Shown here piece by piece: positions 3,701 to 32,540 of a stretch of 32,540 nt of DNA (the stretch's first letter is position 1; each line of letters opens with the position of its first letter). Source of the stretch: Gonapodya sp. JEL0774. Taxonomy: Eukaryota; Monoblepharomycota; Monoblepharidomycetes; Monoblepharidales; Gonapodyaceae. The notes below the pieces were generated by a model, which was given only the letters and a program-made list of their open reading frames with translations, ran no database searches and was not told the DNA's origin. Where the stretch lies: NCBI GenBank assembly GCA_027604505.1, contig JADIIX010000193.1, forward strand, positions 1-32,540, in the 5' to 3' direction. The position numbers and the translations under genes were made by a program.

Positions 3701-4145
3701 GTCTCTATTGGGAGAGAACTTTGAGACGAAGGCAAACGAGACAGTGGTGTCTGCAATTCGAGTTAGACCAAACGCACGACCTCACCAGTACTTGGAGACG
3801 CGTTCAACAATTAAGCGTGAGGATCGGGTGACCATCTCGCCCTGGCAAATGGGATTTGTCTCATCCCATGAGGACTGCATCAATTGTGATGATGGAGTCT
3901 GACTGTTGAGGGATCATGTGATAGAGTGTTCTGGAGTTGGACCGGCAGTGGAGAGGTGCCTGCAGTCAATCTACCCCCTGCCGCACGTTCTATATGGTAC
4001 CAATGTCATGGATCACCTGATCAACTGTGCAGTGTTAGATATGGGTCCAGTAGTGGTCAAGACCTTGGTGGATGCTATCAACAGGATGGAGTGGTGCTGC
4101 CGTGGACGTGCCAGGATGGAGTCGGGGTTCTTTCAGGTGCCCTAA
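766..4145 (+). pseudogene. LINE ORF2: endonuclease-reverse transcriptase with C-terminal zinc knuckle, disabled
   Basis: The product would nick target DNA and reverse-transcribe the element RNA at the nick. Endonuclease (about 766-1480): PNVNS near the start, LCETWL, GDLNAHS and SDHCPL supply the usual Asn, Glu, Asp-x-Asn and Ser-Asp-His residues. Reverse transcriptase (about 2180-3150): GADKVPAEFY, DHRPISLT, QGGFRPHRG, motif A DLKAEYDMVD, motif B QGSSLSPILF, motif C FADDTALVAF and the thumb-side YLGFPF. A C-x2-C...H-x3-C knuckle lies at about 3870-3935. Lesions: a frameshift in a G-rich stretch near 947-970, TAG at 1508-1510, a frameshift near 3450 and TGA at 3900-3902, with the frame then open to TAA at 4143-4145. 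The catalytic residues survive, so decay looks moderate. The start is the ATG at 766, which overlaps the ORF1 stop. Confidence 0.88.
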
Positions 4146-6998: not shown

Positions 6999-9900
6999 CT
7001 TCTGCACATAAGTTTTGGGGAAGACCCCCTTTTTGCTTCCAAGTTTCCCTTCCCACCAATCATCTGTATCATTGGCAGATGTGACAGAAATAATGTCATT
7101 TTCCTTGAATGAAAGCTCATCAGGACTGGGAAACAGCAATCCCAAATCTCAATTCAAATCATTCTAGGCGCATAAAATCTGAAGACTTACTCTGCTGCTT
7201 CATAGTCATACAATGCTTTCACTGACAGCAACAAAGTTTGTTAATTCAAAGAAACTGAAAAGTTGTAGGCAAAATGTATACCTTTTCGTTGAGTAAAAGT
7301 AGAAGGCTTTGGTGTTAATGGTTCAATTGCTCTCTGAAAGTTTTGAATGTTAACCAAAAAAGAACTATCTTAAAGAAATGGAACAATGAAACTTACCCTC
7401 AAAGTCCCTGGGGATTCTTGCACTTCTTCTACATACACATTAGGAAATTGACCAACTTTCCCATTAGGTGCTCAAAAATGGACCAATTATCAGAGGATTG
7501 TGTTTATAGAAAAATAGAGTTGCCCTACCTTTTCCCTCCCACCATGCATCTGAGCCAGTTGCCTTGCTGGTAACAACAATAATGTCACCAGCTTTTGATG
7601 ATTGAAATTGTTGAAGATTCATTAAATGAAAACATCTGCCAGAGGCTCACCTTTCATGCTAAGCTCCCCATCACATGTTGCAGTGTAGTCAAATTTGGCA
7701 CGAACTTATGAAGTAAACCATCATGAAATATTAGTGAGTAAATTCATGGAAAGGAGAGACAACAATACAGTACCTGTAGCCTTTTTAGGAGTTATACTGT
7801 TGGTGCTGACAATACTTGCTGATCTGGTGTGTCGCGCCATTGCTGGTGGTACCATAGTGTCCCATCCTTGCGTGAATATGATAGGAAACTGTCCAACTTG
7901 CCCTGTCCTTAGGTGCTTCCCTTCCCACCATTGAAGGTTTTGATCTCCTTCGTTGGGCTTTTCCGTGACCTCAATAATATCTCCAGCTACGAAGGATAAT
8001 TCTGTGTCATCAGATGCCACATGATCGTAGACTGCTTTCACACAATTTGCACCAAGTTCTGAGAATGTTGTTGAGGCACTGTCACTCCCAGTAGCATTAG
8101 TGTGAACATCAACCTTCACATAGTTTGCAGGCACAAGTCCCACTTGAGAACCCTTCTGAGCCTTTAAAACAGTCAAGCAGGGTTCATTCAATAATTATTC
8201 CAATTCTTATTACCTTCAAAGTATTGCAAACATACCTTTACCCAGCCATCCTTCTCCCCTTCAAGCAAAATGAGTCGGTCATTCTCATGGATACTGAGTT
8301 CACCCTCAATCTTGCTGGCATAATCAAACAAGGCTATGGCTGAAGAGGAACCTATAGATTTTGACTGAGCAACTGGAGTCACAAGTTTTGGGAGCTCAAC
8401 TGTCATTGGAGCAGAAGTTTTCAGGGAATATAATGGCAATGTTACTAGGGTATCTCACCTTTTTTCTCAATCAATAGATTCATTAATGTCTCCAGCCGCA
8501 ACTTCTCATTGGTCAGTACATGTAACTGATACTCCAAATCTGCTTTCTCCTAAATTGTCCAGTAAGAGTGAAATGTGGTTTATAAAAGTGAAAAACTTAA
8601 CACATACATCTGAAGCACTGTTTGCATTTCCAAATTCAGGTGTTTTGCTGTAAGCATTCACCATTTGAGATAATCCAGCAATAGCTTTCTCAACCCTCTG
8701 TAATTGGACAAGGACTTCTTGGTTTCTTTGATGATATTGCCTGCTCAAGGACAAGCATGAGGAGAGCAGTGAAGCTCAATATCTCAGTTGCTCCACTCAC
8801 CCAAGTTTTTGTGACAGCACAATTTTGGAAAATTCATCAACAGTAATATCTGTGATCTAAACAGGGGGCCAGAATATGTAAAGAAACAAGTTTAATCAGA
8901 TGCACATAGAAACTGAGAAACCTTATCTGCTCCTGTGTTTCCAAACACAAAAGGTTCTGGTTCTCTAAACGCATCAGCATTTTGTGTCACAAAAAGTCTG
9001 GAGTCTGATTCTCTCTCCACATGAGAAAGAGTTGTTTGAAGAGTTTCCATGCTGGTCTTCAACAAAGCAGAGTATTCTGTCTCCACAGCACCATATTTTG
9101 AGAGCAAATCCACAAGCAATGAGTAGTATCTTCCATCTATACGCTTCATCAATGATGGTAAGTCCACTGGGAAAAGAAAGAAAGCATAACATTGAGGGAG
9201 TAACTTTCAACAACAAAAGACTTTCTCACAACTATAATATTGCTCTTGTTGCATGTTTGTTGATTGCAATGCCAGTAAATAGTCATTTCTGGCATCCTTT
9301 TCTCAGAGAGTATGCTGATTATAGTATATTTGGCAGAAGGATCTGATGATCAGACTCTCACCTGCAATGATCTATAGGCAGCTTTAAGCTTTTGCTTTAA
9401 CTGTCGGAATTTGATGTAAGAATCCTCATGGACACCAATTTTCCTTCGAAACATGCCTTTGCAACAATTTGGTCTTGGTCAGTCTCTATAAGTAATTTGA
9501 TCAATGGAATGGCAGTTTGAGTGAGTACCAAAAGTCTGATTGGCAAACTGAAATAAATACACACGCTTAACCATGTTCCTCAACGCTGTAAAAGCAGTGG
9601 TACCCCTGTTGGATTCCAAGTCATACTTGGCCTGGGCAGCATCTGCATCCTTGGATGCTTGCTCATACTTCAATTTTACCTTAATTGGATTGATGTCAGA
9701 TTTCAGAATGTTTGAAATCATCCTAATCATCATTTTCTCCTGGCCAACAATACCTGCTCCAAATCTGTATAGCTCTTTGTGAGTTCTATTTGAAGCCTTT
9801 GCTATAAAGGAACAAACAATAATGTAAATTGTGTTACTTTGGTGAAACAGGATGTTGTATGATTACTTACACCATACTCTAATTGCTGTGTAAAAGACAT

Positions 9901-11905: not shown

Positions 11906-14900
11906 AGAGCAAGTCCTTCGCAAAAAGGGATCGCAAGGGCAACGTGGTGACCGTTGTTCGAGAGCATTGTAGGTCTTCGGGAAGCTGATACCACAATGAT
12001 GTGCGAGTGTTCACCAATCACACAGACCTCCGGGACGATATTTGGTGCTCTATCCAAGGATGCCGAAAATGCCAGCATACTGATCCCGTGCTCGCAAACC
12101 CTCCATCTATGAGAAGCCCGTTGGTTCCAGGACCTCATTACTTGGTAGCAGACACCAACGTACTCTATCACCAGGTGAAGTACCACTTATCGAATGAATT
12201 TGCAGACTGTTGCTCGAGAACCAATCACTGTCGGTAATAGATTGACGTCGTTGAGCACACTGCCTTCAGGGATTTGATTATTCCGCAGACTGTTCTGCAG
12301 GAGCTTCGACATCGGAGTGTGCCTATTTATAACCGCCTTCGTTCTCTCATGAACGATCCTGGTCGACGGATGTATTTGTTTTCGAATGAGCACCACAGGT
12401 TTGTTTCTATTGATTGCTCAGTTCACCGTGTCTTGTCCGCACTGGAACCAGTGTGCACCGTCAGGGAGACGTACGTGGACAGGGAAAAGGATGAGTCTGA
12501 AAATGACAGAAACGACCGTGGTGAGCCGGAACTTCTGATTTGGAACGTTTACTTGGTCTCAACCATCGTGCTGCTTCAAGCGATTCGGGGAGTCACAGCT
12601 TGGTATCAATCACATATTCGATTGATCCAGCCATCCGGGCAGTCTTTGAGGGTCGCTCTGCTCACTAATGACGTCGCAAACAAAACGAAAGCAGCTCAGG
12701 AAGGTCTCACCGCTTTCTCTGGTTGGTTTCTGCTCGATTTCTGAATGGATAAGCGCGCCAGAGATCTAACGTTCCAAAAGTCTCGGAGTACGTGGAGTCA
12801 TTGACAGATTTTCCAGATTTGGTGGACATGGTGGCAAATGCTGTTGATGATTCAGAAGCAACCGATCGGACAGCCTTTGAGGATGTGAGTTGAATGAAGC
12901 TAAATTAAGAAATCGTCACTACAATTGGTTGATGTGGCTAATCTTTTGGCTCACTGTCTACCTTTCAGCATCTGACTCCTTTGCAAATATCTGCAGGTCT
13001 CAAGGATGGGTCACTATTGCAGGGTGTTGTGCGCACGCTGTCTCACAACAATCTCGAGGCGACAATATTTGCGGTCGTTGATGGTAAGGAGACAACTGTC
13101 GTGCTCGGAGGCCGGAAGTCCTTGAACAGGGCTTTCGACGGTGACGTCGTTGCTGTGCGCCTCCTTCCGCGGAGTGATTGGAGAGCGACAGTGTCAGAAG
13201 TTGCTATTGATGATAACGACGGTAAGGGATGCCACTGACCGCTCCAGAGAACTCTATTCAGATACTCGGCGTTCTACGACAGATGACGAAACTCTACTGG
13301 AGGAGGACGAATCTAGTATGGTCGTCGACAAGGTCAAAGATGAAGCTACGGCTGCAACCACACCAACAGGAAAAGTGGTGGGGATAATTAAGCGAAACTG
13401 GCGTCCATACTGTGGATCCATAGACCCGGCGACAATAAATCAAATGGCATCAACTACCTCAGCGCAAACACTGTTACTCCACCCAATGGACCGACGAATT
13501 CCTCGAATTCGATTTCGCACGCGACAAGCGAGTTTCCTCGTTCGAAAACGAATAGTAGTTGTTGTGGATTCTTGGAACAAGAATTCACGATATCCTTCGG
13601 GACATTTCGTGAAGGTCCTGGGCGACGTTGGCGACAGGGAAACGGAAACTGATATGCTGTTACTCGAACATGAAGTTCCCTTCACGCCGTTTACACCCCA
13701 AGTACTGAAGTGCCTTCCTCTGGAGGGCGAGGATTACAAAATTCAAGACAGCGAGATTGCGAAGAGACGGGACTTCCGGTCCCTAGACATCTGCAGTATA
13801 GATCCACCAGGTGCGCGATATCCGGGAGGTGGCTGTTGACACGTCAGATCTCCTTAGTCTTCTTCACTAGGGTGCACGGATATCGACGATGCCTTGCACT
13901 GCTTGCAGTTACCGAATGGGAATCTCAGCGTCGGTGTCCGTGAGTGATCGCATTGCGCGAATGATGAATAACTCTTAAAGAACTGTCTTTCAGATATCGC
14001 CGATGTCTCCCATTTTGTGATGGAGGGTAACGCAATGGACACGGAAGCTGCATTGCGAGGTCAGTAGTCAAAATGAGTTCCTTCTGACACCCTGCTTGCA
14101 ATAACCATGATTATCACTCTAGGTACGACAGTCTATCTGGTTGACAAGAGAATTGACATGTTGCCTGCGTTATTGGGAACCAGTGAGTGATAGGAGGCAT
14201 AGTTGCACAGAGGGCTCATAATTTGACTGGGTCACGCCCGAAGACTTGTGCTCTTTGCGCTCAAATGTCGATCGACTCGCATTTTCGTGCATCTGGGTGA
14301 GTTTTTACGATATGTTGTGACTCCTAACTCCCGTAACTTGCCGTTCGCAATTTTGGCCAGGAAATGACCCACGACGCCGAAATTGTGGGCGTTGAGTTTG
14401 CAAAGAGTGTTATACGCTCAAAGGCGTCCTTGACGTATGAAGAAGCTCAGGCACGGATGGACGATAGGTGAGGCGCACTTATCTGAAGGTGGGGCGCAAG
14501 TTCATTGCCGATGTTTCCCCAAAGCCTGCAGACCGATCCTATTACCACTGGCATCCGCAATCTGAACAAGTTGGCCAAAGTACTCCGGTCACGCCGTATT
14601 GAAGGTGGTGCTCTGACACTTGCTTCACCCGAAGTTCGGTTCCGCTTGGAAAGGGATACGAACGACCCAGTGGACGTTGGTGAGGGCCATTGCATCAATT
14701 ACGTACCTGTCTTTTTTGTGGCTGACACGTCATTGGCACTCGGCAGAAATGAAGGAGCTCAAGGAAACAAATGCTCTGGTGGAAGAGTTTATGCTCTTAG
14801 CCAATATTTCAGTCGCAAAGAAGATTTTTCAACATTTTCCTGACTCCGCGATGCTGCGGTGAGAATTTTCTAAGAACGCAATCCAATTTTTGGCGGTGCT

Positions 14901-15912
14901 GTTGAAACGCATATTGTGCACTGCGATGCAGGCGTCACCCCGCCCCTCCATCCTCTAATTTTGATTCACTAAAGAATGCTATCTCAGAATCCTTTGGGTT
15001 TGATCTGGATGCATCTTCTTCTTCATCTTTGGCCCGTTCTTTGGACAGAGCCGTGGTGAGTAATTTATCACCCCATGAATCCACCTATCGTGGAAACCTG
15101 CCGGTAATAGCCACCGCTTAAATCAAGGTTTCTGGAGACCCTTACTTGAATACTCTGCTCCGCGTCCTCACAACCCGATGTATGATGCAAGCTGTCTACT
15201 TTTGCTCTGGCACTATCGCCGAACCGGAGTTCTGGCACTATGGCCTTGCTGCACCCATTTATACCCACTTCACTTCACCTATCCGACGCTACGCTGATGT
15301 CATTGTGCATCGTGAGTTATCCGCTGCTATTGGGTACGGCACATCGGCGGTCGCGACGACTGTATCACAGGCCCTGACAGACAAGTCTCGTATGCGGGAC
15401 CTTTGCGAGAATCTTAATCACCGACATAGGATGGCGCAATTGGCGGGTCGGGGGTCGGTCGAGCTATACACGCAGTTGTTTTTCAAGGGCAAGAGTTTTG
15501 AGGAAGTGGCCTATGTAACGAGAATCCTCAAGAACGGATTCATTGCACTGGTGCCGAGGTGGGTCTTCGTAGAACTCTCGCCATCTACTGCTTATCAAAT
15601 ACTTACTCTTGGGATGAATGAAGCTACGGTATCGAAGGTATCGTATATATCTCCGCTCCAAACTCCACCTCTGCCCTTCTTCGCTACGACGAGCAGGCAA
15701 ATTCGCTCACTTCGCCAGACCTCAATATCACGCTGCGTCTCTTCTCCCGCGTTAAAGTTCGAATTACAGTCGAGGAGAAGGGTGTGGCTGGGCTACGGTC
15801 CAAGCTCACCATGACACTTGTGGAGCCTCATGTGCCGGGATTGGCTCCAGATTATGTGAAGGGAAAGGGTGTGGCGGACAATCAGAGAGGTGTTAAGAGA
15901 AAAACACGTTGA
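11899..15912 (+). CDS. DIS3: RRP44/DIS3 exosome nuclease (PIN endonuclease + RNB 3'-5' exonuclease)
   Basis: Catalytic subunit of the RNA exosome, degrading and trimming RNA in nucleus and cytoplasm. ATG at 11899 opens [17 protein letters not shown], joined over a 57-nt intron to YLRDDIWCS...C..C, the conserved N-terminus. [33 protein letters not shown] with acidic residues present. Two cold-shock domains follow (about 12969-13220 and 13370-13720). [19 protein letters not shown] joined at 13810/13871 to CTDIDDALH, so the catalytic Asp cluster is intact, then [31 protein letters not shown], and [21 protein letters not shown]. The S1-like end is at 15624-15912. Eighteen exons give about 986 residues, close to yeast (about 1,000) and human (958). 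Two junctions are awkward: exon 5/6 (12703/12762) does not keep frame with any standard splice pair, and exon 7/8 needs a 28-nt intron. Confidence 0.93.
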
Positions 15913-20973: not shown

Positions 20974-20980
20974 CTACACT
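20960..20980 (+). repeat. Left copy of a short AT-rich inverted repeat flanking the gypsy remnant
   Basis: GTACAAATATATATCTACACT at 20960-20980 is the reverse complement, with about two mismatches, of the copy at 22434-22454. Part of it is simple TA sequence, so chance or local palindromic drift is possible. Confidence 0.35.
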
Positions 20981-22506
20981 AAATCCGTAGCGCTCGTCAT
21001 ACAACACTCCCCCCTCTTCTTCAAGAGCGAGTCCCACTCAAGCAAAGTGGAACTACATATGAAATAGTGCGCAGCGTCACTCCAGCAGGCCTTGCGCTTG
21101 CAAAAGTTTGTGGTGCTTCTCAAATGCCTTCTTCTGGGCACGGCGGGTGAGAACCTTGCCGTTAGGTGCTGGGTGCTTCTGTTTGCATGTGTCAATGAGC
21201 TCATCTGCAGAGATGAGACTTTCGGGCTGCCACTCAGGGGTTGTGTACCCTCAAAACTTGATTCGGTGTCAGGTTCCACCATCTTGTCAAGGATAGCCTT
21301 GACAACATAGGTTGGCTGGAAGTCTGGTCCCAGCTCTTCTTGGGTAATATCACTCTGTGCAATCTCAGGTGAAACAGGTTGGGCCAACTCAGCTGTAGTG
21401 TGAGGAGGCAATGCAGCCGTCCTTTTAGGATTAGGCACGTAATGGGTGATCCATGGCTGGTAATGGCACATTTGACTCATTTGTGTTCTAATCATGTGCT
21501 CAGTGCTGATATGGCTGAGCTGGAAGATGTTCTCACTCTCCTTCTCAGTCATGTGATAGGGCCCAATCCACTTAGATATGAGCTTAGTGCCCTCCCCTGT
21601 GGGACGGGACTCTTTGTAGCACAACATCACCAGCTGGTTCACATCAAATGGGGTGGTCACAGCTGCAAGAGCACCGAGCTTAACAGATGTCACAGGGTGG
21701 GGCTTTAAGACAACTGTGCCTGTCCAGCGACAACAGGTGACAATATCCTGGGCAGCACACATGGCACCATGAAAGCCTTCTATTGTAATATCCTTGTTGA
21801 GGACAAGATCAATGTTGTGGCAGTGTGTGTTGCCAGTTTCAATATGCACAGAGGTCTTAGTGCCAAGCTTGCCGTCATCAGCTTTGAAGGCAATCCATCC
21901 TTCATCGTAGTCAATTACGGCATGCCAGATTCGAAGGAAGTCCACACCCAAGAGGATTGGATAGGGAATGTTTTTGATAACCACGAGGCAAAGTGCGTGT
22001 TGAACACTGGCAAGAGTGATGGGTAATAAGACTTGCCCAAGTGGAGCGGTGATAGCACTGTTTCCTACAGTGATTGGCTGCAGATTCCAGGGCTCAAGTG
22101 GCATCATGGAGAAGTATTGACGGTAAAAATTACCACTGACTGCTGACAGGGCAGCACCAGAGTCTTGGATGATGTCCATCTGTGGAAGTGTACCCACCGT
22201 ACCTTTAATAGTTGCAGCTATCCTGATATTAGCATAATCAGGAGGATTTCCATTACCATGAAGTTCGACAAGCATGCAATTAATTTCTTGGTGTGATTGA
22301 GAGTAATCAACACGCTGCTTCCTGGGGGGAGGAAGGGCACTTCGGGGGACTGTGTTGCTAGTGACAATATTAACCTCTGGTGGTGATGGAGCTTGTTGTA
22401 TGACCACTGAGTCGACATGTGGGACGTAGTGTAGTGTAGATATATTTTTGTATGACACGTTCACATAGCAGTCCGACAGGACTGGACACACAGAATACAT
22501 ATACAC
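20974..22506 (-). CDS. Ty3/gypsy-type Pol remnant: aspartic protease fused to integrase C-terminal region, RT/RNase H/IN core absent
   Basis: An uninterrupted 510-codon frame. Residues 110-120 hold the retropepsin active site (IIQDSGAALSA) and residues 184-190 the flap-side PILLGVD, followed by the usual spacer (GTVVLKPHPVTSVKLGA at about 263-279). Immediately after, at about residues 284-352, comes an integrase C-terminal GPY/F-type segment (FDVNQLVMLCYKES...KWIGPYHM...QLSHISTEH...CHYQPW). No reverse transcriptase, RNase H or DDE integrase core lies between, although these normally take some 900-1000 residues. The frame nevertheless stays open over the joint (about nt 21660). The last 130 residues are unrecognised, as is the first third, which may be a Gag/protease leader. 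Long terminal repeats were not found. Confidence 0.75.
   Translation of the reverse strand: MYMYSVCPVLSDCYVNVSYKNISTLHYVPHVDSVVIQQAPSPPEVNIVTSNTVPRSALPPPRKQRVDYSQSHQEINCMLVELHGNGNPPDYANIRIAATIKGTVGTLPQMDIIQDSGAALSAVSGNFYRQYFSMMPLEPWNLQPITVGNSAITAPLGQVLLPITLASVQHALCLVVIKNIPYPILLGVDFLRIWHAVIDYDEGWIAFKADDGKLGTKTSVHIETGNTHCHNIDLVLNKDITIEGFHGAMCAAQDIVTCCRWTGTVVLKPHPVTSVKLGALAAVTTPFDVNQLVMLCYKESRPTGEGTKLISKWIGPYHMTEKESENIFQLSHISTEHMIRTQMSQMCHYQPWITHYVPNPKRTAALPPHTTAELAQPVSPEIAQSDITQEELGPDFQPTYVVKAILDKMVEPDTESSFEGTQPLSGSPKVSSLQMSSLTHANRSTQHLTARFSPAVPRRRHLRSTTNFCKRKACWSDAAHYFICSSTLLEWDSLLKKRGECCMTSATDLV
22434..22454 (-). repeat. Right copy of the AT-rich inverted repeat
   Basis: The segment 22434-22454 (AGTGTAGATATATTTTTGTAT) is the inverted partner of 20960-20980. 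It lies inside the 510-codon ORF rather than outside it, so the pair does not behave as element termini. Confidence 0.35.
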
Positions 22507-23149
22507 TCGGGACCTGATTCTCGTCCCACACCCCCGTCATTCCATAGGCTGAGAAAGGGGTCGCAACAGAAAGCTTGCTGTGGAAGGGACCACATTGGAA
22601 AAGCGACCCTTGCAGCCACGGTCCAGTGAAGGGTTTGCTGCACCCTTCACCAGGCAGTGAGTGCCTCGAGGCAATCCCACAACAACATGTGCGCTGATGT
22701 TGAGCCCAGGCCGTGAACCACTTAACAGTTGTACAGCAGAAAACTGCTGCATAACCTAAGGGTTACTCTGACCACTAAACCTCTCGAACAAGTTGCTGGT
22801 CTACGCCATGCAGTACTTGGTGGGTGAGCATTGCCGCCAGGGCCATGTTAGTGGATATTCTGGAATGGAGTATAAGGCCAGATCTGGTGTGCATCATTCT
22901 GCAAGGCCTAATATCAGCTCAAATGTCAAATGTTTTCCCTCCTTGAATGCCACTCATTTAATTGATTTGGACACAATGTCTGCAAGTCTTCCTTAGAGTC
23001 TGGGTTTGTGGATGTGCAGATCAGTGCCTCCACCAATATCCACAAGTTCCTGGGCAAAAGGCCAACAACTTTTTTGCATTCATGCATCCTTCCTGTACTA
23101 TAAGTAATCTGACTCTGCCTCAAGTATGTTGAGTTGCAAGAGTAAATTA
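22507..23149. other. Unassigned stretch upstream of the gypsy remnant
   Basis: Two overlapping minus-strand open stretches (22752-22537 and 22643-22461) could be the leftover of a gag region of the gypsy element, but they contain no CCHC knuckle or other motif. No host gene and no LTR boundary is visible. Confidence 0.35.
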
Positions 23150-23275
23150 CAAAAAAAGAATAGCGACAGCTAGTTTGGATCTACCGACTTCCGGGTTATG
23201 ACACACTGTGTGGTCAGGTGAGCAAGAGCTCATTTGAAAAAGGAAAACATATAGCAACGGGTAGTTTCACTCTAC
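23150..23275 (-). repeat. Outlying copies of the tRNA-half repeat (one whole, one partial)
   Basis: A diverged unit (TAGCGACAGCTAG..GGATCTACCGACTTCCGGGTTATG) starts near 23160. A second, truncated one (TAGCAACGGGTAGTTTCACTC) starts near 23252. Both match the units of the large array beginning 1.2 kb further right. Between them the linker is of the B type (CTGTGTGGTCAGGTGAGCAAG). Confidence 0.8.
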
Positions 23276-23299
23276 ACGGCGGCGGATTTTATGTGCATT

Positions 23300-23470
23300 C
23301 CGAACAGAGAAGTTTGGATTGCTCAGAATCTGAGCAGAATATGACCAGAATATGAACAGTATTATTCAGATTTTCTTATCAGAATCTGATCAGAGTGCTC
23401 TTAACAGAATCTGACCAGATTGTCATGGTCAGGTTTTGGGGACCACAAGAATCCGAAGTTCTCTGTTCAG
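23300..23470. mobile_element. MITE-like element with 21-bp terminal inverted repeats
   Basis: CCGAACAGAGAAGTTTGGATT (23300-23320) and AATCCGAAGTTCTCTGTTCAG (23450-23470) are inverted copies matching at 18 of 21 positions. Inside, the motif CAGAATCTGA followed by G, T or C and CAG occurs three times (near 23324, 23379 and 23404), with CAGAATATGAC/A variants between. It is 171 bp with no coding capacity. No clear target-site duplication is visible, so it may be a fold-back repeat rather than a mobile element. Confidence 0.5.
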
Positions 23471-24469
23471 AAAGGGGTGGTTTCCTCCAGAGACGGTTCA
23501 TGATTTCATGAACCCACGTTGAAGAAGCGCTCGCACGCTGAAGAAGCGGAACGACGCAGGACGGTATCTCAATGGACTTTCCTTTTGTACTCAAAGATTG
23601 TGGAACTGTGTGTGTTGTGTGTGACTCCCGCTGCTGCACCTTGCGCCGGCAGACCGCCAAAAGCATCAGCAATTCCTCCAGAACAGTGAGCTGGACAGTG
23701 TCCATACTGTGCTCGGTGATGAAAAAGTGGGTGGAGAGACGCTGCTGGACGCGCAATCGGAACCTGACCCAGTGGTGCACGCGGAAGCACACGTGTTGCT
23801 TGACAATCTCTCCAAATTTTGAGCGGGAGCTGGACCGTTTTTGGGTGCAAGCCATCACCAAGAAATTGATCAGCCTGAACTTTTTGGCTGGGATTTTGGG
23901 CAGGATGGCTTCGAATTGGGGGACGCTGTCGAACTGGCTCGGTCTGCACCAGCAGGGCACAAACAATTCCCAATCATCGAGGCCTTATGGGACTCTGCTG
24001 AAAACAATGAAGTAGTCCAGAAGCGCAGAAAGCACCGGGCTGGTGCCAGGGATCCCAGGAAACCATATCTCTCGGGACTCGATCTTCTGCTCACCCTCTT
24101 TCAAGCATCCACTGCCCATCCACCCTCTCGCAACCTGTTCTACTTTGTATGTTTTCTTGCAAAGTATTGTCAAGAACATCTGCATGACACTATGCCTTCC
24201 CCAGACCACGTTTGGAGTCGCGTTGACTTGCGAATCCCTCCGGATATCATGCCTGGCCTCTCACAAGCAGTTGTCCAAACAAAGTGAGGACGTAAAACCA
24301 TCCATTCCATCTCCCTTGTGTCAATGGCTAAGCTGGTCGTTGGTGATCCCAGCCTTGCTCTGGCGCTTGGCTTTCTCCCTGAAATCAACACCTCTGGGGG
24401 CATCAAAAACATCCAACAAGCAGTGGCTTGGCACACAGATTCCTCGTGTCAACTTATGAATGTTCGGCA
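23471..24469. other. Region with overlapping open frames on both strands, no product recognised
   Basis: Long open stretches occupy both strands (minus about 23379-23966, plus about 23572-24015 and 23841-24287), and a further plus frame near 24290-24450 reads smoothly (SMAKLVVGDPSLALALGFLPEI). No motif, domain or consistent exon chain emerges. It may be an old transposon body or a degraded gene next to the array; which strand is coding cannot be decided. Confidence 0.3.
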
Positions 24470-26372
24470 GACTTCTGGATTATGAGACACTGCTTGTTGA
24501 GAGAGCAAGAACTCAGTGAAACAGTCAAAAAATATAGCGGCAGGTAGTTTCGATCTACTGACTTCCGGGTTATGATACACTGCTTGTTGAGAGGGCAAGA
24601 ACTCAGTGAAAAAGTAAAAAAAACATAGCAACAGGTAGTTTTGATCTACCGACTTCCAGGTTTTGAGACACTGCTTGTGGAGAGAGCAAGAACTCAGTGA
24701 AACAGTGAAAAAATATAGCGACAGGTAGTTTTGATCTACCGACTTCCGGGTTATAATGCACTGCTTGTTGAGAGAGCAAGAACTCCTGAAAAAGTAAAAA
24801 AATAGCAACGGGTAGTTTCGATCTACCGACTTCCGGGTTATGATGTACTCTGTGGTCAGGTGAGCAAGAGCTCATTTGAAAATGGAAAAACTGCAGTGAC
24901 ATGTTGTGTACCCGTGACATCTGGCCCCCTGGGTGGCCACAGACTAGTATAAATACCCACATGTACTAGAGACACTAGCAATATACATACGAGTACTCGA
25001 GACTACGTCCGGACCCACGGAACCGTCACGGTTACACCACATACAGGTTGTTTTGATCTACTGCCTTCTGAGTTATGATGCACTGCTTGTTGAGAGAGCA
25101 AGAGTTCATTTGAAAAAGTGAAATAGTATAGCGACAGGTAGTTTCGATCTACCAACTTCCGGGTTGTGACACACTGCTTGTTGAGAGAGCAAGAACTCAG
25201 TGAAACAGTGAAAATATATAGCGACGGGTAGTTTCGATCTACCGACTTCCGGGTTATGAGACACTCTGTGGTCAAGTCAACAAGATCCTTTGAAAAAGGA
25301 AAAAGTATAGCGACGGGTAGTTTCGATCTACCGACTTCCGGGTTCTGATGCACTCTGTGGTCAAGTCAGCAAGATCCATTTGAAATGGAAAAAAATATAG
25401 CGACAGGTAGTTTCGATCTACCGACTTCAGGGTTATGATGCACTCTGTCGTCAGGTGAGCAAGAACTCATTTGAAAAAAGGAAAAAAATTAGCGACGGGT
25501 AGTTTCGATCTACCGACTTCCGGGTTATGATGCACTCTGTCGTCAGGTGAGCAAGAACTCATTTGAAAAAGGGAAAAAAACTAGCGACAGGTAGTTTCAA
25601 TCTACCGACTTCCGGGTTAATGGTTATGAGACACTGCTTGTTGAGAGATCAAGGACTCAGTGAAAAAGTAAAAAAAACATAGCGACAGGTAGTTTCGATC
25701 TACCGACTTCCGGGTTATGAGACACTGCTTGTTGAGAGAGCAAGAACTCAGTGAAAAAGTGAGAAAAACATAGCGACAGGTAGTTTCGATCTACTGACTC
25801 CCAGGTTATGAGACACTGCTTGTTGAGAGAGCAAGAACTCAAGTGAAAAAGTAAAACAAAAGTAAAAATTTATAGCGACAGGTAGCTTCGATCTACCGAC
25901 TTCCGGGTTATGATACACTGCTCGTTGAGAGAGCAAGAACTCAGTGAAAAAGTGAAAAAATATAGCGACGGGTAGCTTTGATCTACCGACTTCCGGGTTA
26001 TGATACACTGCTTGTTGAGAGAGCAAGAACTCAGTGAAAAAGTAAAAAGCAAGTAAAAAGTTATAGCGACGGGTAGTTTCGATCTACCGACTTCCAGGTT
26101 ATAAGACACTTCTTGTTGAGAGAGCAAGAACTCATTTGAAAGAAGGAAAAATATTAGCGACGGGTAGTTTCGATCTACTGACTTCCGGGTTATGATACAC
26201 TGCTTGTTGAGGGAAGCAAGAGCTCATTTGAAAAAGTAAAACAAAAGTAAAAAATTATAGCGACGGGTAGCTTCGATCTACCGACTTCCGGGTTATGAGA
26301 CACTGCTTGTTGAGGGAAGCAAGAGCTCATTTGAAAAAGGGAAAAAATCTAGCGACGGGTAGTTTCGATCTA
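24470..26372 (-). repeat. Tandem array of initiator-tRNA-Met 3'-half units, left block
   Basis: About 18 units of roughly 88-104 bp. Read on the minus strand, each contains TCATAACCCGG, AAGTC, the T-arm GGTAG-ATCGAAA-CTACC and CGTCGCTA, then a T-rich run (TATTTTTT) like a Pol III terminator. This is 41 nt, exactly U33 to discriminator A73 of a tRNA with CAT anticodon. The T-loop ATCGAAA (A54, A60) is the signature of eukaryotic initiator tRNA. The 5' half of the tRNA is missing. In its place is a hairpin-forming linker, CACTGAGTTCTTGCTC...CAAGCAGTG (type A) or a CTGTGGTCAGG-containing form (type B). No CCA is encoded. The block ends at 26372, where a transposon has inserted. Confidence 0.88.
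24902..25041 (+). mobile_element. Solo-LTR-like insertion (140 bp) inside the array
   Basis: This non-repeat segment interrupts a unit between TGACA and TACAGGTTG, which correspond to the unit's AGCGACA and GGTAG. It starts TGTTGTG and ends CACCACA, its first and last 17 bases are inverted copies at 15 of 17 positions, and it holds a TATA box (TATAAATA, 24948-24955). Flanking GACA/TACA may be a decayed 4-bp duplication. A solo LTR fits best; a small MITE is the alternative. Confidence 0.55.
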
Positions 26373-26397
26373 CACTCGGCTCTGCCTAATTTGACTC
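26373..26397 (+). repeat. Left terminal inverted repeat of the Tigger element
   Basis: Begins CACTCGGCTCTGCC directly after TA 26371-26372. The third base C differs from the CAG normally found at pogo ends and kept at the right end. Confidence 0.9.
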
Positions 26398-26518
26398 AAC
26401 TTGGTCGACACAAAAGGGGGTCAAATAAGGCAGAGAATCAACTTAGTCAGAGGGCATAAATTTTCGTGAATTGCAGGCCTTTAAAAATACCAGTATACCT
26501 ATACAATATTTTAGAGCC

Positions 26519-28323
26519 TCAAGGGAGTCTTTTCACGCTCAAAAATGTTGTCAAGTTTGTCTGCCGATTGGCTGACAAAATGTGGTGGTTGGTATCCCTC
26601 TCCAACCGACCAAGAAAAAAATCCAGCCGCCTGGCATCAGCCCCTCCCTCAAGCACCAAATACTCTCTGAGCAGCTTTGCTGCATTCAAGACGTCTCTAC
26701 CGGATGGACGCGACTCAATTTCCTTGCCATGGAGCTCCTCCTCATCAATGGTCTCTTCTTCGGCCATCACAGAGGTGAAGATCTCCTCAGGGGTTTCCAC
26801 AGCCGAGAACGTGCCATCCTTGCTGTCTGGGTTCAGGAGAAAGTCCAGACTCATCTGGTTTCTTGGGTGCAGGACGTTTTGCTGAACCAATGCATCGAGT
26901 GTGGCTTTGATTTCGACCCCGGCACTCATAAGTTCGGCGTTTTGGTCCCTTATGACCAACACGGTTAGCTTTGAAATCGAAACATCAAGGAAAGAGACCT
27001 CCTACCCAATGTGTTCTGGTGTGGGAATGATTTTGGTACTTGCCCAACAGTTCTTCACGGTTTCCGGTGAAAGCCCCTCCCATGCTCTCTCAACCATCTG
27101 GATAGCCTGCAGAATGTTTAAGTTGTAGATCTCCGTGATGGCAACATTGTCGTTGTATCTTTTCGAGGCGTAAGTGCATTGTTCACGCCGATAGTGGGCT
27201 TTCAAAGTGCGGATCACACCAGCATCAAGCGGTTGGATGTAAGTGGTCATGTTAGGCTTGAAGAGCTCGACACCAATGTTGGTGACTCCCTCTGGCATTT
27301 GGTGACCAGCAAAGTTGTCGACAAGTAAGAGAATTTTGCGGCCTGCAGATTGAAGATCACTGTCCCATTTTAGAAGGTACTCCTGGAAGAGCTCTAATGT
27401 CATCCATGCTGTTTTGTTGTACCTCCAGTAAATTCCAAGCTGACTCCCTGCTTTCCATTGAAAGGGCCGTGGTTTTGCAGCGTGACCAATGAAGAACAGA
27501 GGTCGCTTCTCTGAACCATCTGCATTAACACAGAGAGCGACTGTGAAGCGTCTTTTATCCACTTTATTCCCACTAACTCTTTTTGCTTTCAGTCCCCTGT
27601 CGGGCTCCATACTCCAGAATAAGCCAGTTTCATCGAGATTGAAAGTGTCTTGCAGAGCAAACATAGCAGGTAGAGGTTTCAAACATTCCTGCTCCCGCGC
27701 AACCTCTTCTTCGTCTGTGGATCCTGCCTCTCCATGAGCAACGTGTTGTTTTAGCATATTTTTTGCTTTCAGTGACGTCAACCAACCGTCACTGAAGTCC
27801 ACTTGTTTTGCTCCATCATTCTCGCAAAAGTTACATATTGCGCTCTGATCATCGCTCCAGCTATGAGCAACTTTTTGTTGATAGCCTGCTGTATCCATTT
27901 GTCCATCATTTCTGTGAGTTGTGGATGTTTCCCCTCCCCAACGCAATTAACTGTCGTGCTGCCCACTGCAGCATCATTCGTGTAGATTTCTTCCTTCCTC
28001 TTCTTTCAGTTGCTTAGAGAAGAAGCGCTAATGTTGAGTCCAAGTTTCTTATTCCATTTTTCGCATAAGGCCTCCCGTTTTAGTGTTGGGTTCGTATCCA
28101 GACAATCTCTTAGAATTGTCTCATGCTCTACTATGGTAGGTTCCCGTCCCTGACGCTTCTTCTTTCTGCTTTCTGCGCTCTCGTCATTCTGAGCAGGCAA
28201 ATCACACTTTTTGGAAGGGGCGTTGGTGTTGAAGGCAGTTGCCCATGTCGTTATTGTCGATTGCAATGTAGCTGAAGGCGTTTGGCCCTCTAATATAGCA
28301 TCAGTAGGGTATTGCTTGCCCAT
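26519..28323 (-). pseudogene. Tigger/pogo-type transposase (DDE_1), inactivated
   Basis: Minus-strand segments in order: an N-terminal helix-turn-helix (ETILRDCLDTNPTLKREALC, about 28323-28009), a CENP-B-like DNA-binding segment (LTEMMDKWIQQAINKK...MIRAQYVTFARMM, about 27966-27800), and the DDE_1 catalytic core with FNLDETGLFW, ILLLVDNFAGHQ and YIQPLDAGVIRTLKAHYRR giving all three acidic residues. An acidic tail (MAEEETIDEEELHG) runs to 26519. Lesions: an in-frame stop at 28006-28008, a frameshift near 27800-27810 and an in-frame TAG at 27002-27004. The copy cannot encode a full transposase, though the catalytic core (27946-27002) is still open. Confidence 0.92.
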
Positions 28324-28776
28324 GCGACTCTTGTTTCACTCACCAGTGGTTCCGTTCACAGAAATCAATCTTCCGATTGCCTGTTGTTGTTCCTCACCCA
28401 TCCTTGAGATTTCATCTGGCAGATCCCGCGGGAGCACGTTTGCAAGCTGTTCTAGAACAAGAATCTAATCCACGAGATTCAATGGCCCGTCAAGCTCATC
28501 CAGTTCCGAAGCAGTGGCAATGCCATCTTCTTGCTTCCCCTCAATTTCCCTCCGCCTGGCATCACTCCACGTCTTTAGAGACTTGAGTCCTTTTGAAAGA
28601 GAATTGTGGGTGATTTTGGACGTATCCATGGTGTTCTAAACAAGAACGGGGATGGTTTTGGTGCCCAGGCACGCTCTTTACAATTTGACTTTTGGTCAAA
28701 TTACAGTCAATATCACTATGTCTTTTTGTGGTCAACAGGTTCTGGCGTCAAATAAGGAAGAGAATCAAATTGCACA

Positions 28777-28801
28777 GAGTCAAAATAGGGAGAGTCGACT
28801 G
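28777..28801 (-). repeat. Right terminal inverted repeat of the Tigger element
   Basis: Read inward on the minus strand it begins CAGTCGACTCTCCC and matches the left end at 21 of 25 positions. TA at 28802-28803 follows. Confidence 0.9.
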
Positions 28802-28803
28802 TA

Positions 28804-29615
28804 CCAACTTCCAGGTTATAATGCACTGCTTGTTGAGAGAGCAAGAGCTCATTTGCAAAAGGAAAATGTATAGCGACGGGCTGCTGACTTCCGGGTTATG
28901 AGCCACTGCTTGTTGAGAGAGCAAGAACTCAGTTGAAAAAGTAAAAAAAATAGCGACAGTAGTTTTGATCTGCTGACTTCCAGGTTATGACACACTGCTT
29001 GTTGAGAGAGCAAGAACTAATTTGCAAAAGGAAAAGATATAGCGACGGGTAGTTTCGATCTACCGACTTCCGGGTTATGATGCACTGCTTGTTGAGAGAG
29101 CAAGAGTTCATTTGAAAAAAGGAAAATATAGTGACGGGTAGTTTTGATCTACTGACTTCTGGGTAATGATGCTCTGCTCGTTGAGAGAGCAAGAGCTCAT
29201 TTGAAAAAGGGAAAAATTATAGCGACGGGTAGCTTCGATCTACCGACTTCCGGGTTATGATGCACTGCTTGTTGAGCGAGCAAGAACTCAGTTGAAAAAG
29301 TAAAAAAATATATCGACTGGTAGCTTTGATCTACTGACTTCCAGATTATGATGCACAGCTTGTTGAGAGAGCAAGAATTCAGTTGAAAAATATAGCAACG
29401 GGTAGTTTTGATCTACCGACTTCTGGGTTATGACACGGTGCTTGTTGAGAGAGCAAGAACTCAGTTGAAAAGGTAAAAATATAGCGACGGGTAGTTTTGA
29501 TCTACCGACTTCCGGGTTATGACACGCTGCTTTTTGAGAGAGCAAGAACTCAGTTGAAAAGGTAAAAATATAGCGACGGGTAGTTTTGATCTACCGACTT
29601 CCGGGTTATGATGCA
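28804..29615 (-). repeat. Tandem array of initiator-tRNA-Met 3'-half units, right block
   Basis: This block continues the unit broken at 26372, starting with CCAACTTCCAGGTTATAATG. It holds nine further units of about 80-91 bp, starting near 28870, 28950, 29039, 29129, 29220, 29310, 29393, 29481 and 29570. All linkers here are of the CACTGCTTGTTGAGAGAGCAAG (A) type. The unit at 28870 lacks most of the T-arm. The last unit stops inside the linker (GATGCACTGG) near 29615, giving the right edge of the array. The final units are nearly identical, which suggests recent duplication. Confidence 0.87.
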
Positions 29616-30266
29616 CTGGGACTGTCTATAACCCATGGAGTACTGAGGTAATGACCTCTATCGATGTGACCCACAGTCAAATACAGTCTCTTACATTCTC
29701 TGCTTCAAAATTGTCCCCAGGAACGACCCCCGCTGTAATCCCTCGTTTTTGAATCATGTCATTTCGCGCAGATGCCCTCCGGGTCCCCGAGCAGTCTTTT
29801 AGTTTGTAGCTCACTTCATGTTGCTCTCTTGCTCAGATTTTTCAATTATCTGGATAAAATGGATATATCAAGTCTCTATCAAGAGTTGAACTATTGTCTC
29901 CCTGCTTCTGTGTCTGTCTCCTGCCCTCTTGACTTGGTACTACCTCCCCAATCAGTACATCATCTTGATACTACCTATTTCAAAGTCCCTTAATCATCAC
30001 AAGATCACGCTACGCAAATGAAATATCACTAGACTATGATGTTTGGTGCGTTATCTTTGACCGTACCTCTTTTGTGGACTTTCACCGGCTCTGTTCAGGG
30101 TATGTTCCAGGTTAACACAAATGAAATCACTCTTTTCCACGATCCAGGACGTTTCAAGAGTGTCAACGACACTTCATTTGCTGCAAAGGAGTGTGAGGAT
30201 AATGAAAGACAACAGAAAACTCTATTCTGAAAAGACGGTGCTCGGCTCCATTAGCTACCTCAACTA
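29616..30266. other. Spacer between the array and the Crypton-like element
   Basis: No gene, repeat or RNA is recognised in these 651 bases. The 3' boundary of the recombinase element should lie in or near this interval, but no terminal repeat is seen, as expected for Cryptons. Confidence 0.4.
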
Positions 30267-32540
30267 CTACTTGCTACTTTGTTCTTTGATAAGCTCCTTC
30301 TGAAGTTTGTCCAAGGACCATTTCTCATCCAGCCAACAAGTCTCAAGAGCTTGTACTGCCCTCTCCACACCTCCATCCTTCTCCTTCAGGTCCCCAATGG
30401 CCTTGTACAACGCCTTCCACCGACGGGCAAATTGTGAATCTCCAACTTGCCACTGTGCTCCAAAGCGCTTCTCCAGCTCCTTCACTGGTGGGCCACCTGC
30501 GTATCCATCGATGTACTCGGACCAGCCATCGGGAACTGTCTTGATTGAACGATTGAACTTGTACTTGGGCATTTCACCACCTCTGCGCCAACAACACCCA
30601 GAAGTGGCCCTCTCAGGCTCTCCCTCCTCCTCCTCCTCGTTTGCAGCATCAGCACAATTTGGGTCTGGACCACTCCCAATCTGTTCCTGATCATGCCCAT
30701 GTTGACCCGCTTCACTTAAGTGGTTTTGCAGCTGATTGGCCCTGTGTTCGTAGCTCATGGCTTCCTCTGCTACTCTGACCCCCACTCCCTGCCAAAGAAG
30801 ATGCATCAATTGCCATCAGCATCTCCGTAAATGAACAAATTCTATTTCCTAGTGCCTTCAGCATTGTATTGTTCACTCGAACAAGAGACGAAACCTGATG
30901 ATTCAAAGAGTCAACAGTTTCTATCAAAGGCTGGACTGTGCGCTGAACTGAGGAGACTGTGTCACGTTGATGCACAGCCATTGCATCCATGAGGTCTGGA
31001 ACAGCTGTTTGAAGATCTGTCATGACTGGCATTTGAACACCAGGTGCTTCCATGGCTGCCTTCAACCTGTCCCAGAAGTTATGAAACTGTGGAGAGTGAA
31101 AGAGAGGGGTCTGAAATAAGTGATGGGATTTGTAGGCAGGGTTGCTCATCAAAACTGCCCCATCTTGGAGGATAACAATGCGAAGCCATCGCAGTAGATC
31201 TAAGAAACCGATGGCTGTGAGATCCTGAGTCACTCCTGTCCTACTTGTCACTTCCGCAAATAAATCGTCGATCCCGGGAAATATCAGTGACTGCAGATCT
31301 TCATCGGGAAGCGCAACATTGCGAGGTAAGAAGTATGTTTTCTGAACTGGGGAGAATCCCGCCAAGCCTAAAATGACCACAGGGGATGTTGCTCATGTAA
31401 GAGCCTTCCATGCGTTTGCCGTTCCAGTGCCGAAGTCTTCTAACCTGGTTGTCATCAATGTTGGGCAGTTGCTCAATCTGACGGACAGGGCCATGGCGCC
31501 GTGCATGAGTTTTACTCAGGGAGTTTATGTGAACTGTCTTCATCATTTCGGTGATTGCTTTGAGCTGAGCGTGGTATGCTACTCTCTCATACCGATTATG
31601 CCCATCTTTGCCACTTTTTGCGAGCACAATGTCATACCATGAACCCCGGCTGCTGAGATCTGGGAAGTCCTCTTTCTCAATGTGAAATCGATGATAGATC
31701 GATGGTAGAACCCCAACGCACCGACAGGGCAACACTGGAAAGCGAAAGAGTTAGCCAGCACCATTCCATTGTAATTTCTCTATAAACAGATCTCATTCTT
31801 GATGAGACTTGAGCAATGAATACTCACTTGCTCATTAATGTGACGAATGCATCCACCTGTTTCCAGCCGGCCAACTTGATTTGTCTTGCCACGGCACACA
31901 GTCGCCACAAGCACAAAGCAAGGGTGAGGACCCTGGTTTTTCCACTCTATCCTAGAGAGATCTGCAAGATCTGCTTCTCGGACAGATTCACTTCTAAGGA
32001 CCATGTGGTGAGAAACAAGGAAGTCCATCTGGTCCCTCAATCCAGTACCATTGTCACGGTCCCAATAGTACTTTGCAGCTTTGGGCAGGTCCCCTTCTGT
32101 GTACCCATCCAGATGCGTTCCAGCACCACAATCCTCATATGCCTGACGTTTGCGCTCACTTTCCCCCAATGTCAATGCGTGCATCTTGTCCTTCAGGGCA
32201 CCACCTCGGATCTTCTCATTCCTTGATGCCCTCCCAAAAGCAGCCTGTTGATTATGTAGGTCAAGAATTGCCTTAACTACATTTTCCAAAGTGTTTTTGG
32301 AGAGTGGAACAGGGTCTCAAGTGTGTGATGCAACGAACTCGGGGCGCTGCGTAAAGTCCACTGCAACCTGCCCAGAATGAGAGTTCACTGCCCTCTTCCG
32401 TTTTGAAGAGCTAGGGCTCCCTCTGTTTTGGCGGAGTGTCAATTCATCCTCCTGTTGTATCTCGTCCTCAGAGTCCATTTCAATCACCTGATCGGCATGC
32501 TGTGACTGTCCTTCAGCAGTGGTGGGAGTTTCTCCATTCC
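30267..32540 (-). pseudogene. Crypton-type tyrosine recombinase with C-terminal GCR1_C domain, disabled and truncated by the window edge
   Basis: Reads leftward from the right edge. An acidic/basic leader (32539-32320) ends at an in-frame TGA near 32316-32318. Then come NQQAAFGRASRNEKIRGGAL, the recombinase N-domain (DLPKAAKYYW, HHMVLRSESVREADLADL, GPHPCFVLVATVCRGKTNQVG) and, after a likely intron (donor GTGAGT near 31826, acceptor CTTTCCAG at 31734-31741), CCPVGALGFY. The catalytic part follows in a shifted frame (THARRHGPVRQI, DNQVRRLRHWNGKRMEGSYMSNIP, giving H-x-x-R, W and the presumed nucleophile Tyr). After another frameshift comes TYFLPRNVALPDEDL...GFLDLLRWLRIVILQD, and finally, after a third shift near 30720-30780, the GCR1_C DNA-binding domain (YKFNRSIKTVPDGWSEYIDGYAG...FARRWKALYKAI) with stop at 30267. 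This domain order is known from fungal Cryptons. Several frameshifts make the copy inactive. Confidence 0.82.

Follow-up and report, generated by a model that had tools for sequence, protein, structure and literature searches.

How does half of a tRNA gene come to be repeated in tandem? The question is raised by contig JADIIX010000193.1 of Gonapodya sp. JEL0774 (hereafter C193), which was analyzed over its whole length of 32,540 bases ("the window") as one of the 381 contigs of a 25.0 Mb assembly. It carries an array of ~90 bp units, each containing the 3′ half of a tRNA-Met(CAT) gene or a part of it. Based on the results below, the array is likely to be a local DNA satellite, born at the tRNA gene itself by tandem duplication and decaying neutrally afterwards.

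The repeat units and the gene at their head

A BLAST search with the 41-mer from U33 to A73 detected 30 units or unit fragments in the window, all on the − strand: 28 at 24470–29611 and two at 23161–23275. This is the count given by an earlier reading made from the letters alone (the sequence-only reading), and its tandem array was also recovered by Tandem Repeats Finder (TRF), with periods of about 90 bp at 24470–24844, 25046–26373 and 28886–29618. With a TRF period of 89–103 and, over 39 units, pairwise identities averaging 0.906 for the half and 0.769 for the spacer, the repeat belongs among satellites or minisatellites. The sole other block found in the assembly lies at C27:165–1621 (contig C27 is also labelled L062) and contains 16 units on the strand of the gene described below. 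In the genome-wide count that the sequence-only reading had recommended, all 45 matches of a DNA search with the unit (a lower bound, as are all match counts of this search) and all 23 matches of a pattern search with up to two mismatches fell on C193 and C27. The pattern CTCATAACN{8,18}GATCGAAAC gave seven matches in the 25 Mb assembly, all of the array family, and its reversed control gave none; a chance origin of the tRNA-half likeness is therefore excluded.

As extracted, most units are 82–108 nt long and consist of the 41 nt half U33–A73 (or part of it), a T run and a spacer of ~49 nt. CCA is absent and the B-box region is carried, as had been noticed before. Of 44 extracted units, the 42 with at least 36 of the 41 columns were scored; W_28901 and W_24482 were dropped as truncated, and the stretches 23161–23201, 23252–23275 and 26350–26373 were not extracted. 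Seven of the 42 scored halves (3/26 in the window and 4/16 on C27) are identical to the 3′ half of an intact gene on C27, which marks the units as tRNA-derived and confirms the extent from U33 to A73. The earlier statement that each unit carries exactly these 41 nt was too strict: the window units differ from the gene at a mean of 2.77 positions, gaps counted (26 units), and several are truncated.

The intact gene lies at C27:2720–2795(−) and was called tRNA-Met(CAT) by ARAGORN. It is the only intact tRNA found with the half of the array; the tRNA list of the assembly covers 63 scored candidates out of 791 from a first look. Comparison with the assembly's own Met(CAT) gene, which the sequence-only reading had called for, gave a perfect match over the 41 nt. 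Initiator tRNA-Met is characterized by a CAT anticodon, a GGG:CCC anticodon stem, A54 and A60 in the T-loop and the pair A1:U72. The gene has this anticodon, the GGG:CCC stem and an ATCGAAA T-loop with A54 and A60, but it also has a T1.T72 mismatch and an elongator-type D arm. The initiator identity proposed earlier is likely, though T1.T72 and the D arm do not fit it; the gene is best described as initiator-like, the only such gene found in the assembly, and is probably the initiator. Two other CAT genes were rejected as the source, since the halves of both do not match: one on C350 is elongator-like, and one on C216 looks mitochondrial, judging from its AT-rich contig with several tRNAs.

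A search with the gene gave 41 matches, one of them full length. Among the other 40, two gapped matches begin at query positions 26 and 32, and the remaining 38 begin at position 35 or further on, from C32/U33 onwards. At the other end, the homology does not stop at A73. It extends 23 nt further, through the T-run terminator, up to the TA of a 1.07 kb element. The earlier suggestion of a tRNA gene or precursor, and not mature tRNA, was right in that the source is gene-level DNA. The distance between the gene and the C27 array is ~1.1 kb, mostly made up of this TA-flanked element, whose ends were read by eye; six bases separate the element from the first half. Because the gap is mostly the element and the 3′ flank is shared with the unit spacers, the intact gene is the head unit of the array, on the same strand.

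The array is interrupted within the window by a DDE transposon of 2.43 kb, an insert of ~150 bp and a stretch of ~1.2 kb (Table 1). Joining the flanks of the DDE_1 element, which we take to be pogo/Tigger-like, gives an empty site that restores an uninterrupted unit. On the gene-ward side, the window holds one end of a Crypton-like transposon with NDC10_II and GCR1_C proteins. The other end of this Crypton-like family is matched by C27:1–149, and C13, C310 and C68 hold both ends on the same strand and in the same order. On both contigs the repeat breaks off at the same phase of the unit, to within ~2 bp: C193 ends the unit with ...GATGCACT and C27 resumes with CTGTGTGGTCAAG..., where an undisturbed unit has GATGCACTCTGTGGTCAAG. 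Since both termini of one transposon family and a unit broken at the same phase are found, the arrays of C193 and C27 are very probably one interrupted array, and the two contigs would be neighbors in the genome.

At the far end of the array, the last spacer (unit 23161–23201) aligns to the spacer of unit C_881, none of 500 shuffles doing as well, and beyond this alignment the sequence departs from the repeat. The fragment at 23252–23275 was probably split from 24470–24482, as read by eye. A Pfam search with two open reading frames (ORFs) of the stretch between them gave nothing above the cut-off.

Origin of the array

We propose the following course of events. A tandem duplication would have copied the initiator-like tRNA-Met(CAT) gene from U33 on, together with about 49 nt of the DNA beyond A73. 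Unequal exchange, presumably by unequal crossing-over, would have multiplied the ~90 bp unit until copies and fragments numbered at least 46, downstream of the gene and in its orientation. Later insertions into the array would have brought the TA-flanked element with terminal inverted repeats beside the gene, the Crypton-like element and the DDE element. A second spacer type, in which CTGACGAC or TTGACC replaces the CTCAACAAG kind, occurs in 7 of the 42 units, interspersed in both blocks, and a T-rich insertion is common to six units; both features point to exchange between distant units. That nearly all units start at U33 would then reflect one inherited founder breakpoint and not repeated tRNA cleavage. 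The sequence-only reading had placed the start correctly in the anticodon loop, and it is its appeal to tRNA-half cleavage that the proposed breakpoint replaces.

A candidate reading is that the spacer represents the 5′ leader of the gene. With the 5′ flank of the gene and that of a lone 5′ half described below, the spacer consensus scored 9 and 10, and it scored at most 8.0 with 50 other ARAGORN-called flanks, which include mitochondrial ones and one doubtful call. Such scores are reached by 3–5% of background 45-mers, and one unit spacer that was tried scored higher with another tRNA flank (9.5 vs. 8.0).

A retroposed half amplified as a satellite had also been suggested: a 3′ half produced by anticodon-loop cleavage would have been reverse transcribed, inserted and multiplied. 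Anticodon-loop nucleases do cut at U33, where the units start, and the extracted units are devoid of the 5′ half. However, gene and units remain alike for 23 nt beyond A73, T run included, CCA is missing, no copies were found beyond C193 and C27, and the source gene is a neighbor on the same strand. A retroposed tRNA or tRNA half would be expected to show homology ending at A73 or CCA, with a tail or target duplication; here the homology runs on into the 3′ flank. Because the gene heads the array and the flank is shared past A73, we favor local tandem duplication of DNA; retroposition from a tRNA half, against which the shared 3′ flank and the neighboring gene speak, is extremely unlikely. The layout of gene and 3′ halves also recalls bacteria, where site-specific integrases with the 3′ half of a tRNA gene as attachment site can leave behind an intact gene and, after it, direct repeats of that half that begin in the anticodon loop. 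It could be added in support that a Crypton-like element sits in the array, Crypton-like elements being of the kind with tyrosine recombinases. Here, however, a ~49 nt spacer without cargo separates the halves, the Crypton-like element sits in a spacer, and its C13 and C310 copies adjoin other sequence, so that an integrase origin, drawn by analogy, would be the least credible of all the explanations considered.

Intact 5′ halves in other units would have indicated ordinary degenerate tRNA genes. A lone tRNA 5′ half was found at C27:7647–7674, outside the array units and 4.9 kb upstream of the gene, where it adjoins a segmental duplicate. It is matched exactly by an 18-mer of the 5′ end of the gene. 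It does not continue into the 3′ half; by eye, ten of the bases that come next look like the T arm, so that it may have suffered an internal deletion. C27 does therefore contain degenerate tRNA sequence, as a separate 5′ fragment that is not in the array. A split or trans-spliced tRNA, composed of the lone 5′ half and the 3′ halves of the array, was rejected in view of the intact gene and of the place of the lone half beside the segmental duplicate.

The lone half has A1 (at C27:7674), the usual initiator base, where the gene has T1.T72. The segmental duplication involves the upstream flank of the gene (C27:2927–4002 vs. 7819–8911, 88% over 1105 columns). A weaker stretch reaches 4433/9053, and the duplicated region is partly a CTCCCGTCCTCG-type repeat.

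Sequence decay and tests of function

Most differences from the gene are found at CpG. In the 42 scored units, 68 of 103 differences are C>T or G>A at ten CpG positions. By cells, such changes affect 68/420 at CpG and 5/462 at other G/C positions, with a nominal Fisher p of 6e-18 (related units were treated as independent, and the Fisher p values given here are nominal). Three copies of the Crypton-like element have the same bias (23/228 vs. 18/1548), so it is not special to the array. A search for a DNA C5-methylase family gave four matches on C33 and C74, two of them with an internal stop. The units decay mainly by C>T at CpG, like methylated repeats, and may be methylated. According to the part of the review PMC13297926 used here, fungal repeats undergo deamination of 5-methylcytosine (5mC), and 5mC is present on repeats in Phycomyces.

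A scan of the 41 units of at least 80 nt gave no A box, the best score being 1.5 bits. For reference, 40 A boxes of tRNAs, chosen with a consensus pattern, had a minimum of 8.6 bits, and the source gene scored 12.9. ARAGORN in its bacterial setting called no tRNA in the window, and an Rfam search of 22500–30200 with E up to 10 gave five chance-like matches, none of them to tRNA. Having no A box and no tRNA call, the array is not one of functional tRNA genes. Because the A box was lost with the 5′ half, the units would probably be inefficient genes for RNA polymerase III (Pol III). As for the B box, its TCGA core is intact in 25 of the 42 units and broken in 17. CpG loss in the B box (12/66) resembles that at other CpGs (37/264, p 0.44), and non-CpG cells vary at 6/297 in the B box and 7/593 elsewhere in positions 37–73; these comparisons use the 33 units with the main spacer type. 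B-box conservation is not above that of the rest of the half.

These results bear on three functional explanations. An array of B boxes without A boxes might bind TFIIIC and serve as an insulator or as a TFIIIC sink beside the tRNA gene, by analogy with the ETC sites of yeast and the COC sites of fission yeast. The 25 intact cores, the place of the gene at the array head and the lower variability of the half than of the spacer core by minor-allele cells are consistent with it, but the 17 broken cores and the ordinary CpG loss and non-CpG variation of the B box argue against it, and we regard it as very unlikely. A more specific version is slightly less probable: a maintained TFIIIC landing field, limiting expression of the gene or forming a chromatin boundary, that would have arisen in a single step from a break in the sequence encoding the anticodon loop. 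Equally doubtful is a Pol III source of small RNAs, in which the units would be transcribed into 3′-half-like RNAs; the B-box region and the T-run terminator have been kept, but no scanned unit has an A box, neither ARAGORN nor Rfam found a tRNA in the ranges searched, and the CpG decay fits silenced DNA.

Several observations weigh against a local satellite that decays neutrally, or against steps in that account. With the 1.07 kb element removed, the first spacer has only ~31 nt instead of the usual ~49, and a deletion must be assumed. The ~24 nt of the spacer adjoining U33 may derive from the 3′ flank or from the 5′ leader of the gene. C193 and C27 do not overlap; by comparison with the C310 copy, they lack ~0.86 kb of the Crypton-like element, and single ends of this family are also found on other contigs. 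In the same 33 units, the frequency of minor-allele cells at non-CpG sites is lower in the half (13/890) than in the spacer core (38/891). This lower variation could come from weak selection or from conversion by the gene; singleton variants show no clear difference between half and spacer core (7 vs. 14, p 0.19). With regard to methylation, the same part of PMC13297926 states that early-diverging fungi largely replaced 5mC by N6-methyladenine (6mA) as the main mark and that tRNA gene repeats of Ascobolus are left unmethylated. The simplest reading is still that the array is a neutral, decaying satellite, a by-product DNA that would lack a function.

Related repeats and other features of the window

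Satellites related to tRNA are already known. According to the part of PMC10702118 used here, the SINE-derived Squam3 satellites of snakes have a 67 nt unit made of the 3′ part of the tRNA-related head of a short interspersed element (SINE) with box B. They resemble the present array in their short tandem unit, which comprises a tRNA-related 3′ part with box B and the sequence following it. However, the parent there is a SINE, whereas here an intact tRNA gene stands at the array head and one family occurs on two contigs. A dispersed parent SINE with the same junctions was not found here, the matches lying on C193 and C27 only. The same text describes the amphibian families newt PolIII/TAN, Xenopus OAX and Rana/polIII, which are also tandem repeats with a tRNA-like or tRNA-derived stretch. 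Their units are about 250–360 nt or were called too long for a satellite, in contrast to ~90 bp here, and their origin is given as retroposition (in the title of the newt paper), SINE or unclear, while a neighboring source gene is identified for the present array. In the parts of the respective sources used, the tRNA gene arrays of Entamoeba (PMC2652664) and the human 1q23.3 tRNA variable number tandem repeat (PMC4041453) are likewise tandem arrays, but their units carry tRNA genes; the unit repeated here is a 3′ half without an A box.

In the literature covered, with subscription journals mostly outside, no report was found of an array of tRNA-gene 3′ halves beside its source gene. A tRNA-related satellite still attached to its tRNA gene is an informative variation on these known satellites. 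Satellites with tRNA-like parts were earlier traced to SINEs, retroposition or unclear sources, as far as the cited part of PMC10702118 goes. With parent gene, junction and array together, the way in which duplication of DNA gives rise to a tRNA-derived satellite may be read directly, including its putative founder breakpoint at U33. The array also carries a warning: neither tRNA cleavage nor retroposition need lie behind a tRNA half amplified as DNA, and where small-RNA reads map to arrays of this kind, they could pass for tRNA halves.

Table 1. Array blocks, inserted elements and marked units on C193 (the window) and C27.
Feature	Position	Strand	Evidence or remark
tRNA 3′-half unit, last of the array (3′-most on the − strand)	23161..23201	−	BLAST, 38/41 to the half; spacer then enters other sequence
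Unit fragment, 3′ part of the half	23252..23275	−	BLAST
~1.2 kb stretch splitting one unit, ends not clean	23276..24469		Two ORFs
Array block, part unit and 4 units	24470..24890	−	TRF, BLAST
~150 bp insert between units	about 24891..25042		
Array block, 15 units, first and last cut by inserts	25043..26372	−	TRF, BLAST
DDE_1 transposon within a unit, flanked by TA, with imperfect terminal inverted repeats	26373..28801	−	Pfam DDE_1, 3.5e-40
Array block, 9 units with detected halves and a part unit cut by the DDE element	28802..29611	−	TRF, BLAST
One end of Crypton-like transposon, gene-ward side of the array	29617..32540	−	NDC10_II and GCR1_C proteins
1.07 kb element, TA on both sides, near-identical inverted ends	C27:1630-2694		Between the gene and the C27 block
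Units with the second spacer type	Window 25622, 25530, 25438, 25348; C27 1428, 1152, 513		

Outside the array, the window contains a long interspersed element (LINE)-type element at 923–3724, with an endonuclease domain and a reverse transcriptase in successive ORFs. The exons of a DIS3/RRP44-type exosome nuclease gene with PIN, OB_Dis3 and RNB domains were found at 12241–15814. Within the best 120 of 1145 matches of a search with DIS3, the named ones of highest rank are fungal (Lobulomycetales, Coemansia, Modicella), and another fungus (Kappamyces), animals and a plant rank lower, so that the source is probably a fungus of zoosporic or zygomycete type. In addition, a long ORF on the − strand (20974–22536) has no Pfam match and contains a retropepsin-like motif, read by eye; it is perhaps a retroelement fragment.

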